Assembly: GCF_000691505.1 (NCBI RefSeq)
Contig: NZ_JMIP02000014.1
Coordinates: forward strand, 51,943 to 115,942
Length of the DNA stretch: 64,000 nucleotides
Source of the DNA: Halostagnicola sp. A56
GTDB lineage: Archaea; Halobacteriota; Halobacteria; Halobacteriales; Natrialbaceae
Direction: 5' to 3'
Part shown: positions 53,469 through 57,933 of the stretch, piece after piece
Layout: each line of letters opens with the position of its first letter
Numbering within the stretch: the first letter of the stretch is position 1
Program-made: the position numbers and the translations under genes
Notes under the pieces: model-generated
The model's database searches: none
What the model saw: the letters and a program-made list of their open reading frames with translations, nothing else
Told to the model about the DNA's origin: nothing

Positions 53469-53707
53469 AATTCAGTCCAGTCAGGTTCTTTATAAGAAGG
53501 TTGTGGAACTGCCTACCCGTCGGTTCCGCCGTCGCTACGCAGGGTATCTGGGAGACGGGCCTCGAGCGGGTGTCCTCGCGAACTATCTCTTGAAAACGGC
53601 TCTGTGTGGCGAGTCGCGTGTATACTGTAACGACGCAAACGGATCGGTACAGCGAGTAACGCGTCAAACGGACGATCCGACTCGGGGATTCGAACTTCCG
53701 AGTTGAT

Positions 53708-53779
53708 AGTCCCGGGCAGATTCGAACTGCCGTCCTGAGCTCCAAAGGCTCAGATGATTGGCCACTACACCACGGGACT
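53708..53779 (-). tRNA. tRNA-Gln (anticodon TTG)
   Basis: The reverse complement folds as a tRNA: acceptor AGTCCCG paired to CGGGACT, D arm with GG in the loop, anticodon stem TGAGC/GCTCA with loop CTTTGGA, and T arm GGCAG-TTCGAAT-CTGCC. Anticodon TTG reads CAA/CAG (Gln). No encoded CCA and no intron. Confidence 0.93.
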
Positions 53780-54219: not shown

Positions 54220-54236
54220 TTCGCTGAGTCAGCAAA
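54220..54236. promoter_or_regulatory. Operator-like palindrome A
   Basis: TTCGCTGAGTCAGCAAA, a dyad with arms TTCGCTGA/TCAGCAAA and a one-base centre. It begins 60 bases before the ATG at 54280. Near-identical sites occur at 55183 and 55915, each before a transcription unit of the same locus. Confidence 0.7.
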
Positions 54237-54279
54237 TCGGAGGTGGTGACTTCAGAGAGTCGTCCCTCGGTTCAGTTAG

Positions 54280-54510
54280 ATGACCGAGAAAAGCTATCCG
54301 ACTCGAGGCTATCCGGTCGAACTTGGCGCAGCGATCTCGTCTCCGTTCGAAACGCCGCGGGTTGCGATGGGCTTCGTTTACGCGAGTGTCGCGTTACTCT
54401 CGTCCGACGATACCGTGGTTCGTGGCACCGGAGTTGTGGTATTGTTGTTTTCTCTCAACTGGGTGAATCGTCTCGACCGGCGTACAATCGGAACGGGGGC
54501 GTCGAAATGA
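54280..54510 (+). CDS. Small two-helix membrane protein
   Basis: A 76-residue protein starting MTEKSYPTRGYPVELGAAIS with two hydrophobic segments (about residues 28-42 and 50-64). It overlaps the next gene by 4 bases (ATGA), so it is coupled to the CPVC membrane protein. No family is recognised. The operator-like palindrome A lies just upstream, putting it in the redox regulon. Confidence 0.6.
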   Translation: MTEKSYPTRGYPVELGAAISSPFETPRVAMGFVYASVALLSSDDTVVRGTGVVVLLFSLNWVNRLDRRTIGTGASK

Positions 54511-55001
54511 TAGCCGGTAGCTTGCTCCGATCGATCCGATCGGACCGACGAGCGATGGGATGGGGTGTAGCCGCTGGAGTCGGCGTATTCGCGCTATTCG
54601 GTCTCGTCACCGGACTTATTCCGAACCCGCTGTACGTGCGAATGGTCCCGCGGACGCCGACCGACTACCTGTTTCTGATTCTGACCGCGGCACTGGCGGG
54701 CGTCTACACCGCACAGCGGGTCGTGACTCCGGGACCGGAATCCGATCTCGAGGAGACCGCCGGGGGAGAACCCGACGAGTTAGCGAACGAAGACCGCTGG
54801 GTTTTCGGCGGTCTCGTCGGCGGATTCCTCGCGGTCGGCTGTCCGGTCTGTAACGTCGCCCTGCTCGCGCTGTTCAGTTCGTCGGCGCTCATGACGTACT
54901 TCGATCCGCTCCGACCGGTGCTCGGAGTGCTTTCCGTTTCGGTGTTGATCGGACTCATCTATTCTCGCCACAAACGGTCGTGTCAGCGCTGTACACCCTG
55001 A
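54507..55001 (+). CDS. Membrane protein with CPVC and CQRC cysteine pairs
   Basis: A 164-residue membrane protein with four to five helices. A cysteine pair, G-C112-P-V-C115, sits inside the third or fourth helix, and a second pair, C159-Q-R-C162, sits three residues from the C-terminus. This layout suggests a thiol- or copper-carrying membrane protein, but I do not recognise a named family. The stop codon lies inside the first copy of a 23-base tandem repeat. It probably works with the CcdA, TlpA and SCO1 genes downstream, which is inference. Confidence 0.65.
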   Translation: MIAGSLLRSIRSDRRAMGWGVAAGVGVFALFGLVTGLIPNPLYVRMVPRTPTDYLFLILTAALAGVYTAQRVVTPGPESDLEETAGGEPDELANEDRWVFGGLVGGFLAVGCPVCNVALLALFSSSALMTYFDPLRPVLGVLSVSVLIGLIYSRHKRSCQRCTP

Positions 55002-55104
55002 CGCGGTCGTATTGTACACCCTGACGCGGTCGTATTGTACACCCCAACGCGGTCGTATTGTACACCCCAACGCGGTCGTATTGTACACCCCGACGCGGTC
55101 GTAT
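54990..55104. repeat. Five tandem 23-bp repeats
   Basis: Five head-to-tail copies starting at 54990, 55013, 55036, 55059 and 55082. Each begins TGTACACCC and ends GCGGTCGTAT, differing only at one or two positions (CTG, CAA or CGA in the middle). The first copy includes the stop codon of the gene before it. No spacers exist, so this is not a CRISPR array. Confidence 0.9.
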
Positions 55105-55161
55105 TCCTCTAGGGATCGTTTCGGTACAACTCCGGTGGCCGCGATCTGAGCCTCGAAACCG

Positions 55162-55170
55162 CATATAAGA
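55162..55170 (+). promoter_or_regulatory. TATA box of the wHTH regulator gene
   Basis: CATATAAGA lies 13 bases before operator palindrome B (55183-55199). A leaderless start would fall at about 55190-55200, inside or just after the palindrome. Confidence 0.5.
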
Positions 55171-55182
55171 CGATATTGGTGT

Positions 55183-55199
55183 TTTGCTGAACCAGCAAA
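55183..55199. promoter_or_regulatory. Operator-like palindrome B
   Basis: TTTGCTGAACCAGCAAA, arms TTTGCTGA/CCAGCAAA. It sits between the TATA box and the regulator gene, over the likely transcription start, the place for an autorepressor. Confidence 0.7.
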
Positions 55200-55237
55200 T
55201 CGTGGCCTATTTGGCGTTCAAAGACGGGATTTATCGT

Positions 55238-55600
55238 GTGCAACACGGAGGTCCCTCGAATTCGGCGGAGATATTCCAGATCCTCGCAGACGAGTACGCG
55301 CGGGAGATCCTCCTCACGGCTGATCGAGATGGACCGATGACCGCGAAGGCGCTCAGCAAGGAGTGTGACGCCTCGCTCGCGACCGTCTATCGCCGGGTCT
55401 CGAAACTACAAGACCACGGCCTCATCGAGGAACGACGAACGGTCGACTCGGATGGATCACACCGTAGCGAGTTCGAAACGGCGCTCGAGGAACTCCACAT
55501 GGAAATCGCCGACGGAGAACTATCGCTGGCGATCGAAACGAGAGACGAACTTGCCGACAACTTCACGTCGCTGTGGAGCGGTATCCGGGGTGACGAGTGA
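55238..55600 (+). CDS. Winged-helix transcriptional regulator (ArsR/TrmB-like)
   Basis: A 120-residue winged-helix protein starting at GTG 55238: AEIFQILADEYAREILLTA, DGPMTAKALSKECDASLATVYRRVSKL as the HTH, and HGLIEERRTV as the wing. An in-frame GTG at 55202 and a TTG at 55184 are other possible starts, but the relatives start near QHGG. It lies downstream of palindrome B and overlaps the next gene by one base, so I infer that it binds the three shared palindromes. Confidence 0.75.
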   Translation: MQHGGPSNSAEIFQILADEYAREILLTADRDGPMTAKALSKECDASLATVYRRVSKLQDHGLIEERRTVDSDGSHRSEFETALEELHMEIADGELSLAIETRDELADNFTSLWSGIRGDE

Positions 55601-55863
55601 TGGAACCGTCGTTTCTACTCGCCAAACTGTTCACACTCGTTCTCAGCCTGTTCGTCGCGTATCTGGCGTATCACGGCTATCGGAGAAACGATCAAACGCC
55701 GATGCTATACGTTTCCGGCGGGTTCGTCTTCATCGGTGCCGGTGCGATCTGCGAGGGACTCATCTACCACGTATTCGGGACGACAATTGCATCTGCTGCC
55801 CTCGTTCAGGCAGTTATCGTCTCGAGCGGTATGGTGCTTATTCTGCTGTCGCTGACGAAGTAA
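55600..55863 (+). CDS. DUF7521-like small membrane protein
   Basis: An 87-residue membrane protein with three helices (SFLLAKLFTLVLSLFVAYLA, then YVSGGFVFIGAGAICEGLIYHVF, then VQAVIVSSGMVLILLSL). Its length and pattern match the small haloarchaeal membrane proteins often paired with a winged-helix gene (DUF7521 type). It starts at 55600 with a one-base overlap (TGATG) with the regulator. Whether it senses or inhibits the regulator is not known. Confidence 0.65.
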   Translation: MEPSFLLAKLFTLVLSLFVAYLAYHGYRRNDQTPMLYVSGGFVFIGAGAICEGLIYHVFGTTIASAALVQAVIVSSGMVLILLSLTK

Positions 55864-55914
55864 TCCCAACCGTTGCTCGTTCGCCACTCTCGAGCGACGA
55901 TTGTCGCTTGCGGT

Positions 55915-55931
55915 TTCGCTGACCCAGCGAA
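55915..55931. promoter_or_regulatory. Operator-like palindrome C
   Basis: TTCGCTGACCCAGCGAA, arms TTCGCTGA/CCAGCGAA. It lies 42 bases before ATG 55973 of the SCO1-like gene, next to the AT-rich TTTGAATTTACG. Confidence 0.7.
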
Positions 55932-55972
55932 TCGCCGGTTTGAATTTACGACATCCACCGCAACGTCAACCT

Positions 55973-56698
55973 ATGAATCGGCGTCGGTATCTCCAATCGA
56001 TCGGTGTCTCGAGCATCGCCGCCGCTGCGGGGTGTCTCGACTCGCTTCCGGACAGTGACGGCGCTCGTGCGGGAACCAGTGAAAATAGCGATCGAAAACG
56101 ACCCGACGGAGTGGTTCTCGGACCGCCAGAGCAGGACCTGAGCGAGGCGTCACACCCGAGTTACGGTGACGACGTTCCATCGGTTTCGGTTCCCGATCCG
56201 CTTTCCGACCAGACCGTTTCGACCGATCAGTTCGAAGGTGATCGATCCATTCTGCTGACGTTCTTTTACACGTCGTGTCCCGACGGCGTTTGTCCGGCGT
56301 TGCTACTGCGGTTACGACGGGCACAGGAAGCAGCGGCCGAACGGGGCTACGGCGATTCGATCGCTTTCCTCGCGATGACGTTCGATCCCGAACGGGACAC
56401 CGAGAGCGTGTTGGAAACGTACGCTGACGAACAGGGAATCGATGACGACGCCGAGAACTGGCACTTCCTCCGGCCGGAACGATACGACGACGGCGAGGAG
56501 ATCGTGACCGAACAGTTTGGATTACCGCTCGAGAAGCGGGATGCCGACGAGTACGAGAATCTCGACTACATGTTCCCTCACTTTGCCTATATTTTTCTCG
56601 TTAACGAGCGGGGACTCGTCGAACGTGTCTATCCGGACGGCGCGACCGTTCCGCCATCGGAGGTAGTGGACGACCTTGAAACGGTGGTGAACGGATAG
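55973..56698 (+). CDS. SCO1/SenC-family lipoprotein
   Basis: A 241-residue exported SCO protein. The start MNRRRYLQSIGVSS shows a twin-arginine-like signal and the lipobox AAGC has C21 as the lipid site. The thioredoxin fold carries C102-P-D-G-V-C107 and the copper-ligand-type H204 in YMFPHFAYIF. SCO proteins deliver copper to the CuA site of cytochrome oxidase or act as thiol reductases. Four residues separate the cysteines instead of the usual three, a small deviation. It ends exactly where the TlpA gene starts. Confidence 0.88.
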   Translation: MNRRRYLQSIGVSSIAAAAGCLDSLPDSDGARAGTSENSDRKRPDGVVLGPPEQDLSEASHPSYGDDVPSVSVPDPLSDQTVSTDQFEGDRSILLTFFYTSCPDGVCPALLLRLRRAQEAAAERGYGDSIAFLAMTFDPERDTESVLETYADEQGIDDDAENWHFLRPERYDDGEEIVTEQFGLPLEKRDADEYENLDYMFPHFAYIFLVNERGLVERVYPDGATVPPSEVVDDLETVVNG

Positions 56699-57271
56699 AT
56701 GCGACGACGAGACGTGCTTACCGGTGTGGGAAGTCTGGGTATCGTCGGCGGAGCCGGGGTATTGGCAGTTCGTGGCCTACCGTCGTTCGACGGAATCGAC
56801 GGCTCGGAAGACTCGGACGGCGGCGAAGCGACGACTGCTGACCCGATGACGATCGAGACGGTCGACGCACCGGGCAGCCAGGCCGGTGAAGTTCGCGTTC
56901 CGGCGACCGATCGAGCGACGTTCATCGATTTCTTCGGAACGTGGTGTCCGCCGTGTATTGAGCAGATGCCCGCGCTCGCTGCGGTCAACGAGCGCCTCGG
57001 TGACGATGTGCTGTTCATATCGGTCACGAACGAGGCGATCGGCTCGTCCGTCACCGAAGAAGAACTCGTCGATTGGTGGACGAAACACGACGGAAACTGG
57101 CTCCTCGGACTCGACCCGACCGCGGAACTGACAGCGCAGTATCTCTCCGGGGGGTATCCGTCCGCCGTCGCGATCGATTCGTCCGGGCGGGTTCAGTGGT
57201 CGGATGCGGGCGTCAAGACCGCCGACGAACTCGTGGCGGGAATCGAACTGGCGCTCGAGGCGGAGAGATGA
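56699..57271 (+). CDS. TlpA-like thioredoxin
   Basis: A 190-residue exported thiol:disulfide protein. It opens MRRRDVLTGVGSLGIVGGAG, a Tat-type signal, and the thioredoxin active site is W-C83-P-P-C86 in FFGTWCPPCIEQM. The cis-proline is in GGYPSAVAI. TlpA-type proteins keep extracytoplasmic thiols reduced, for example SCO1 or apocytochrome c. It starts at the base after the SCO1 stop and overlaps CcdA by 4 bases, so all three form an operon. Confidence 0.9.
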   Translation: MRRRDVLTGVGSLGIVGGAGVLAVRGLPSFDGIDGSEDSDGGEATTADPMTIETVDAPGSQAGEVRVPATDRATFIDFFGTWCPPCIEQMPALAAVNERLGDDVLFISVTNEAIGSSVTEEELVDWWTKHDGNWLLGLDPTAELTAQYLSGGYPSAVAIDSSGRVQWSDAGVKTADELVAGIELALEAER

Positions 57272-57933
57272 TCGACGCCTCACTGCTGTCGACGGTCGCT
57301 TTCGCGCTCACCGCTGGCCTTGCGACCTTCTTCAGCCCCTGTGCGTATCCCCTGTTGCCCGGATACGTCGGATTTTACGCCAGCCGGACTGACGGGGAGA
57401 ACGCGTCGATCGTCGGGGCGACCGTTCGAGGCGTCGTCGCGGGTATCGGTGTCTTGGGCACGTTCGCTGTCCTCATCGGTGGGACGTTCTGGCTGGGTCA
57501 ATCGATAATCTCGCGGCTGACGATCTTCGAGTCACTCGTCGGCGGGCTGTTAGTGGTCTTCGGTGTACTCGTTCTGGTTGGTCGCGCGCCCTCGCTGTCG
57601 GTTCCACTGCCGGAACGGCGCTCGAGCGCCGTCGGGTTCGGGGTTTTCGGCGCGGGGTACGCGCTTGCGGGAGCCGGGTGCGTCGCCCCCGTCTTTCTCG
57701 CAGTCGTTGCTCGGTCGGTGTCGCTACCGACGGAGACGGCGGCTCTCGTCCTGATAACCTACGTCGGCACCGTCGTCACCTTGATGGTCGCGGTGACGGT
57801 CGCGACCGGGATGGGCCTCGTGGCGAGTGCGAGTCGGTTCGCCGCCTATTCGGGTCACTTGAAACGGCTGGCGGGCGGAATGATGATCGCCGCTGGGTTC
57901 GGGCAACTCTATCTGGCACTGATCGTCTACTGA
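57268..57933 (+). CDS. ccdA: CcdA-type cytochrome c biogenesis membrane protein
   Basis: A 221-residue membrane protein with six helices, the CcdA/DsbD-like electron carrier. Key cysteines are C25 in FFSPCAYPLLPGY and C138 in LAGAGCVAPVF. It moves electrons from cytoplasmic thioredoxin to extracytoplasmic TlpA. It overlaps the TlpA gene by 4 bases. The three gene products form one chain: CcdA to TlpA to SCO1. Confidence 0.9.
   Translation: MIDASLLSTVAFALTAGLATFFSPCAYPLLPGYVGFYASRTDGENASIVGATVRGVVAGIGVLGTFAVLIGGTFWLGQSIISRLTIFESLVGGLLVVFGVLVLVGRAPSLSVPLPERRSSAVGFGVFGAGYALAGAGCVAPVFLAVVARSVSLPTETAALVLITYVGTVVTLMVAVTVATGMGLVASASRFAAYSGHLKRLAGGMMIAAGFGQLYLALIVY

Follow-up and report, generated by a model that had tools for sequence, protein, structure and literature searches.

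In a 64,000-nucleotide stretch of the Halostagnicola sp. A56 genome (contig NZ_JMIP02000014.1, positions 51,943 to 115,942; hereafter the window), we found three exact copies, within 1.7 kb, of a 17-bp dyad of the type TTTGCTG-N3-CAGCAAA. The dyad is quite likely the operator of a pair of proteins encoded between the sites, namely a small winged helix-turn-helix (wHTH) regulator and a small membrane protein of the family DUF7521, and this pair would control a dedicated regulon. As a first-pass annotation of the window had described, the copies lie just before a pair of membrane-protein genes (here memA and memB), the wHTH regulator gene and an operon beginning with SCO1:

54220–54236: operator 1, TTCGCTGAGTCAGCAAA, 43 bp before the ATG at 54280 of the short memA open reading frame
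55183–55199: operator 2, TTTGCTGAACCAGCAAA, 38 bp before the regulator GTG at 55238
55915–55931: operator 3, TTCGCTGACCCAGCGAA, 41 bp before the SCO1 ATG at 55973

The Dyad Is Rare and Accompanies the Regulator

The exact motif TTYGCTGANNCAGCRAA was found at only four places in the draft genome (3.18 Mb in 26 contigs, 83.7% complete), three in the window and one at C18:160252, indicating that it is not scattered at random. An exact reversed-pattern control gave no match in this genome and one match each in G086 and G107 among 125 genomes of the family Natrialbaceae. Within the window, TTYGCTGANYCAGCRAA with up to 3 mismatches gave 7 strand matches against 1.96 ± 1.85 in shuffled sequences; in this weak test, 2 of 100 shuffles attained 7, and six of the seven window matches represent both strands of the three sites.

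We compared the occurrence of the exact site with that of a close regulator orthologue, defined by a score of 115 bits or more, across the 125 family genomes. The site was present in 52 genomes and the orthologue in 60; 49 genomes had both, 3 the site only, 11 the regulator only and 62 neither (Fisher p = 3.6e-20, uncorrected for kinship). The motif was thus present in 49 of the 60 genomes with the orthologue, and this co-occurrence, together with the rarity of the exact motif, supports the earlier proposal that the local wHTH protein has a small regulon of its own. The three genomes with the site only were G038, G069 and G082, and G069 carries at its site (L125) a regulator of a second clade (clade 2), described below.

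In an order-wide draw of 391 genomes, exact TTTGCTGANNCAGCAAA occurred in 52, and 15 of these were among the 285 genomes outside the family; the reversed control matched in G189 and G307. At 13 of the 15 outside loci a wHTH-DUF7521 pair was present, three of the window's clade (clade 1) and ten of clade 2, whose regulators are 38–45% identical to that of the window. The two exceptions were G259, with no regulator and a chance-like site, and G371, with carbamoyltransferase fragments and no regulator in the 15 kb fetched. Scanned for the motif, viral contigs gave at least 120 matching stretches. More broadly, regulator homologues (E ≤ 1e-12) were found in 123 of the 125 family genomes, with 1 to 9 in each. 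Several regulator copies lie on plasmids (L170, L173, L188 and other loci; Natrinema zhouii and N. gelatinilyticum), which suggests transfer.

Genes Behind the Site and Their Spacing

We next surveyed sites with up to 2 mismatches to TTTGCTGANNCAGCAAA in the window and 80 fetched loci, taking gene starts from tblastn and allowing one site to be assigned to two divergent genes. In this set, which is no unbiased census since the loci were picked for holding sites or regulators, 136 of 148 sites lie 33–153 bp before the start of a tested family and 12 do not. The assigned genes encode DsbA-like proteins (46), MemA (43), the regulator (35), carbamoyltransferase (28), a lipoprotein (19), cupredoxin (12) and the clade-2 regulator (12), with SCO1 (3) and orfA (the short memA form of the window), DUF2243 and memB (one each) as minor classes. 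The regulon of the relatives is therefore larger than that of the window, as it also includes the DsbA-like, carbamoyltransferase, lipoprotein and cupredoxin genes.

The spacing was largely constant. Read on the locus strand, the site is exactly 38 bp before the start in 33 of the 35 regulator promoters assigned to a site, 40 bp before it in all 12 clade-2 regulators, and 43 bp for 34 of the 43 memA sites. When clade-1 regulators were read on the gene strand, 33 of 59 had their own site at 36–40 bp; among the 26 without one, 19 lie behind memB, on its strand and no more than 900 bp away, and the other seven (L085, L131–L134, L136, L140) do not. In both clades the site keeps a fixed distance from the regulator start, and the wHTH protein is the best candidate for binding the dyad.

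Sites were also found before targets unlinked to the regulator, i.e., the SCO1 operon of G048 (L127), on a contig other than the regulator's, and the lipoprotein (L126) and memA (L100) genes of G087, on separate contigs. In clade 2, one operator is common to the regulator and a divergent copper protein of PF00127 (cupredoxin), and multicopper oxidases are encoded near these loci. An ATPase gene in L109, recognised by eye, is presumably CopA-like. In four clade-2 genomes a second site, each of them among the 12 unassigned ones (L111 8246, L112 2396, L116 6975 and L119 6456), was observed 8–18 kb from the first, between genes for SHOCT small membrane proteins and a DUF302-thioredoxin-cupredoxin set. 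Among the other unassigned sites, L074 7600 precedes the short G018 memA, that of L077 precedes an operon of a membrane gene, regulator and DUF7521, L100 7071 has a memA predicted by the gene finder 44 bp behind it, and L113 6851 is beside lipoprotein and carbamoyltransferase fragments; those of L080, L082, L123 and L124 are chance-like.

The fourth genomic site, C18:160252 (L006 3753–3769, reverse strand), resembles the carbamoyltransferase promoters of relatives (TCGTCACTACCGTTTTGC); it was rejected as a carbamoyltransferase operator, since no such gene follows it. Near it, frames that we named by eye as NuoI-like and TBP-like run into transducer-like sequence, which may reflect an assembly chimera. 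In the locus fetched for the carbamoyltransferase homologue of the same genome (C16, 72%), no site was seen at up to 5 mismatches; the best lipoprotein homologue of this genome (52%) is also without a site, and its best DsbA-like match is a 28% protein. A near-site at C6:138273 (1 mismatch) was dismissed as chance, as it falls inside a predicted coding frame or at its end.

Paired Paralogues and Variant Dyads

Immediately behind the regulator gene lies a DUF7521-like frame at all 22 unnamed paralogue loci and at 79 of the 80 named ones, the exception being L204, where none was found. Some of the more distant paralogues have a variant dyad, TTTTCTG, in the same place; another variant, of the type TTTGGTGTGRCCAAA, was seen in L201–L207 upstream of regulators 56–59% identical to that of the window, less perfect in L203 and L207. 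We then tested dyad shapes in 65 non-redundant promoters without a match to the window motif at 3 or fewer mismatches. At 40–49 bp, 15 of the 65 have a 7-3-7 dyad in which six or all seven arm positions pair, against 1–4 promoters per other 10-bp bin, and the 6-3-6 and 6-5-6 shapes gave a slight excess at the same distance (3 and 4 promoters).

Covariation between regulator and operator was examined in 174 regulators. After 64 without a dyad and one without the helix pattern were dropped, 47 non-redundant promoters were left, some pairs of which are the same species fetched twice. All 22 promoters whose regulator has Pro at helix residue 48 carry T/A as the fourth arm pair, whereas with Ala, Ser or Thr (25 cases) this pair was G/C in 21, T/A in 1 and mixed in 3. 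On a tree of 68 regulators, the helix state changes twice and the operator state three times. This covariation is a suggestive sign that the wHTH protein may read the dyad.

Several observations weigh against the wHTH protein as reader of the dyad, in addition to the choice of the surveyed loci. Eleven of the 60 regulator-bearing genomes lack the exact site; a site within 2 mismatches is present in six of them (G007, G030, G032, G064, G071, G117), the fetched loci of four (G094, G111, G112, G114) hold no site, and G092 falls outside the fetched loci. At up to 2 mismatches, 35 strand matches were counted in the genome of the window and 25 with the reversed control, so that weight can be given only to sites that match exactly or almost exactly. 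The 65 promoters gave no excess of the 6-4-6 shape at 40–49 bp. The covariation counts come from a dyad search that required TT or AA at an end, with 64 of 174 regulators dropped beforehand, and reduce to 2 independent tree pairs (sign test p = 0.5). Lastly, Cys43 and His75, which are invariant in 47 aligned members of the regulator family, are invariant also in paralogues of other context and may thus be structural.

The site could also be bound by another regulator of the neighbourhood, for example a TrmB-family protein, with the wHTH gene being merely a target. A TrmB-family gene (cluster 10, PF01978), the product of which resembles OxsR, is present in 16 of 41 loci (L068–L107 and the window). 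However, none of these 16 genes has a site upstream, and the wHTH-DUF7521 pair is accompanied by the dyad in two clades and by variants of it in further ones. The motif of OxsR, CGGnCGnGCG (PMC9426492), differs as well, making this explanation improbable. That the dyad, being an inverted repeat, acts as an RNA hairpin in transcripts is scarcely credible, since in every main class the TATA-like box comes after it and a single copy serves divergent genes.

Position of the Proposed Operator Relative to the Promoter

An AT-rich element was found 9–19 bp downstream of the site in each main promoter class. It spans +13 to +16 for the DsbA-like, memA, carbamoyltransferase and lipoprotein genes, +14 to +17 for SCO1 (3 cases), +13 to +19 for cupredoxin, +9 to +13 for the clade-1 regulator and +11 to +18 for the clade-2 regulator, where it is a textbook box, TTTATATA. 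The clade-2 GTG is about 26 bp after the middle of TTTATATA, as for leaderless transcripts. The corresponding predicted elements of the window are as follows:

54247–54254, + strand: putative weak TATA-like stretch, 11–18 bp downstream of operator 1, assigned by analogy
55164–55171: TATAAGAC, upstream of operator 2; a relict or divergent TATA, or an alternative TATA of the regulator
55207–55213, + strand: CTATTTG, putative TATA-like element of the regulator promoter, conserved in clade 1
55942–55949, + strand: GAATTTAC, putative TATA-like element downstream of operator 3

Given that the TATA-like box is downstream of the site, the operator most likely abuts the transcription factor B recognition element (BRE) and TATA box from upstream, often between divergent promoters.

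This placement was compared with those of three known archaeal regulators. CopR of Pyrococcus furiosus is described as binding a semi-palindrome directly upstream of the BRE at divergent copper-related promoters, where one bound complex can act on two promoters, either activating both or repressing copR depending on the spacing of the starts (PMC7830388). Among the papers compared, CopR appears to be nearest in mode of action: the sites of the proposed regulon likewise stand, by position and with predicted TATA-like boxes, directly upstream of BRE/TATA and often serve divergent promoters. CopR differs in being an Lrp-like octamer with a TRASH metal domain and the motif TTNNCAWWWTGNNAA (PMC7830388), whereas the local regulator is a 120-amino-acid wHTH protein that gave no TRASH match and is paired with the DUF7521 membrane protein. 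OxsR of Haloferax volcanii is a single wHTH regulator that activates thiol-related genes from a site 5′ of BRE/TATA (PMC9426492). It resembles the local protein as a haloarchaeal wHTH regulator with thiol-related genes and this site position, and differs in being of the TrmB family, with Cys24 at a modelled dimer interface and another motif (given above); the local protein is of the HTH_20 family, with Cys43 a few residues before helix residue 48, and goes with the element TTTGCTG-N3-CAGCAAA. CsmR of H. volcanii also has a semi-palindromic site adjoining BRE/TATA, and its motif is TATCA(N4)TGATA and its targets concern motility and cell shape (PMC13286277).

Activation or Repression

For the wHTH protein as binder of the dyad, we slightly favour activation or dual action over plain repression. 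The main alternative, that the bound protein represses all targets by blocking access of TFB to the BRE, is possible and somewhat less likely. The site ends about 8–13 bp before the TATA-like box, so that a dimer could clash with TFB, and the clade-2 regulator promoter has a strong TATA box. CsmR is similarly placed, and deletion of csmR raises target transcripts (PMC13286277). On the other hand, OxsR activates from 5′ of BRE/TATA (PMC9426492) and CopR can activate from directly upstream of the BRE (PMC7830388), and a single site flanked by two divergent promoters fits joint control of both; these points do not settle the matter, and CopR also represses copR. The strength of the boxes does not separate the two modes, as the best A/T count in equal 24-base stretches was 5.64 of 8 for 122 site promoters and 5.32 for 794 other genes of the same loci, indicating that the site-promoter boxes are no weaker than usual.

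The first-pass annotation had placed the middle site over the regulator's transcription start and proposed that the wHTH protein represses its own gene. Such a plain autorepressor draws on TATAAGAC, which is 12–19 bases upstream of operator 2 and has TATA-like versions in many relatives, with an A/T content of 94–100% at four of those upstream positions in regulator promoters; if used by the regulator, TATAAGAC would put operator 2 over the transcription start, which counts against an operator placed upstream of the promoter. However, TATAAGAC read outward is GTCTTATA, coinciding with the divergent carbamoyltransferase promoter element, and therefore need not be the regulator's own TATA. In addition, TTTATATA in clade 2, with the start about 26 bp beyond, and the conserved CTATTTG in clade 1 both lie downstream of the site, which speaks against a middle site over the start. 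Repression of the regulator's own gene could still occur; it is not indicated, and we consider the plain autorepressor unlikely.

Genes of the Locus

The genes of the locus, all on the + strand, are as follows:

54280–54510: orfA, the short form of memA, small membrane protein of 76 amino acids
54507–55001: memB, membrane protein of 164 amino acids
55238–55600: wHTH regulator, 120 amino acids from the conserved GTG, PF12840 (HTH_20)
55600–55863: DUF7521 small membrane protein, 87 amino acids, PF24365; its start overlaps the regulator stop
55973–56698: SCO1/SenC, 241 amino acids, PF02630
56699–57271: TlpA/ResA-like thioredoxin-fold protein with a CPPC motif, PF08534 (Redoxin)
57268–57933: polytopic membrane protein, CcdA/DsbD-like by appearance only

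The regulator passes the gathering cut-off of HTH_20 (40.9 bits, cut-off 27). Its scores against ArsR/SmtB NF033788 (28.2 bits, curated NCBIfam score 55) and TrmB PF01978 (21.5 bits, cut-off 25.6) were below the thresholds, and no TRASH or YHS family was among its 23 Pfam matches. The best-scoring solved structures by profile were PH1932 (1uly, E 2.9e-6) and the ArsR-family 7r22 (E 1e-4), both with a match that spans mainly the wHTH part. The TTG at 55184, inside operator 2, was rejected as the regulator start because an in-frame TAG is found between the site and the conserved GTG in L091, L092 and L098. DUF7521 (65.9 bits, cut-off 27) and SCO1/SenC (61.4 bits, cut-off 22.8) also pass their cut-offs.

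The membrane-protein pair noted earlier is present, with the qualification that its first member is only the 76-amino-acid short form of a protein of about 182 amino acids in the cluster representative of relatives, for which no Pfam match was found. The half with the Cys motif is lost in the short form, apparently also in G018 (L074 7711–7884); G021, of the same genus, has a predicted memA product of 192 amino acids (L075 9817–10395). In MemB, a C-P-x-C-N motif and a C-terminal Cys pair are invariant across 27 aligned relatives; neither for MemB nor for the orfA product did a Pfam family score above the cut-off, and the search of solved structures with MemB gave a single match (E = 0.16). The last operon had been named SCO1-TlpA-CcdA. 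The first two names stand, with SCO1 matching PF02630 and the TlpA-like protein matching PF08534 and carrying CPPC, and the third does not, as 57268–57930 matched no Pfam family up to E = 1 and gave only a below-cut-off NCBIfam match (E = 0.15). The motif SPCAYPLLPGY gives this protein its CcdA/DsbD-like appearance.

At 54990–55105, between memB and the regulator, a 23-bp unit (TGTACACCCCGACGCGGTCGTAT) is present in five tandem copies arranged head to tail; in G018 (L074), memB and the site are about 90 bp closer together. A tRNA-Gln gene (anticodon ttg) is located just upstream of the locus at 53707–53779 on the minus strand.

Discussion

We propose that a dimer of the small wHTH protein would bind the dyad immediately upstream of BRE/TATA and that the bound regulator would control recruitment of basal factors, often at two divergent promoters per site. 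The putative targets would be the regulator itself, SCO1, TlpA-like and DsbA-like proteins, membrane proteins with Cys motifs and, in clade 2, the cupredoxin, and furthermore the carbamoyltransferase and lipoprotein. Because the targets include SCO1, TlpA-like, DsbA-like and Cys-motif proteins as well as the clade-2 PF00127 copper protein, the signal may be copper or the thiol-redox state of the envelope, an assignment to which we give a little less than even chances. The DUF7521 membrane protein would be the likely sensor or partner of the regulator, in view of their constant pairing; a weak match of a clade-2 DUF7521 protein to HisKA_7TM (E = 0.0025, 18.2 bits, below the cut-off of 28.2) fits a sensor.

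Winged-helix regulators with palindromic operators are known, and it is the family, the operator and the pairing with a membrane protein that appear to be undescribed. DUF7521 occurred in no paper of the open-access literature searched, a collection in which subscription papers are mostly missing, and titles and abstract beginnings in the open-access literature held no description of this regulon by motif, by HVO_A0261 or by gene set.

More tentatively, wHTH-DUF7521 pairs might constitute a large haloarchaeal family of membrane-coupled switches, in which each pair would read an envelope signal through its small membrane protein (copper or thiol-redox state in this clade) and act on its own version of the 7-3-7 dyad, with TTTGCTG or TTTTCTG arms, just upstream of BRE/TATA; the base at the fourth arm position would be set by helix residue 48 (Pro versus Ala, Ser or Thr). 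Such operator variants, each matched by a helix residue, would be a compact and clearly bounded example of how specificity changes among archaeal regulators. Regulator homologues are nearly family-wide (123/125) and were paired with DUF7521 where checked, and with a precise operator, a list of targets and a rule for placement, these pairs can be put to a direct test. The pair may reveal how transcription in archaea is tied to the delivery of copper and the exchange of disulfides on the outer side of the membrane.

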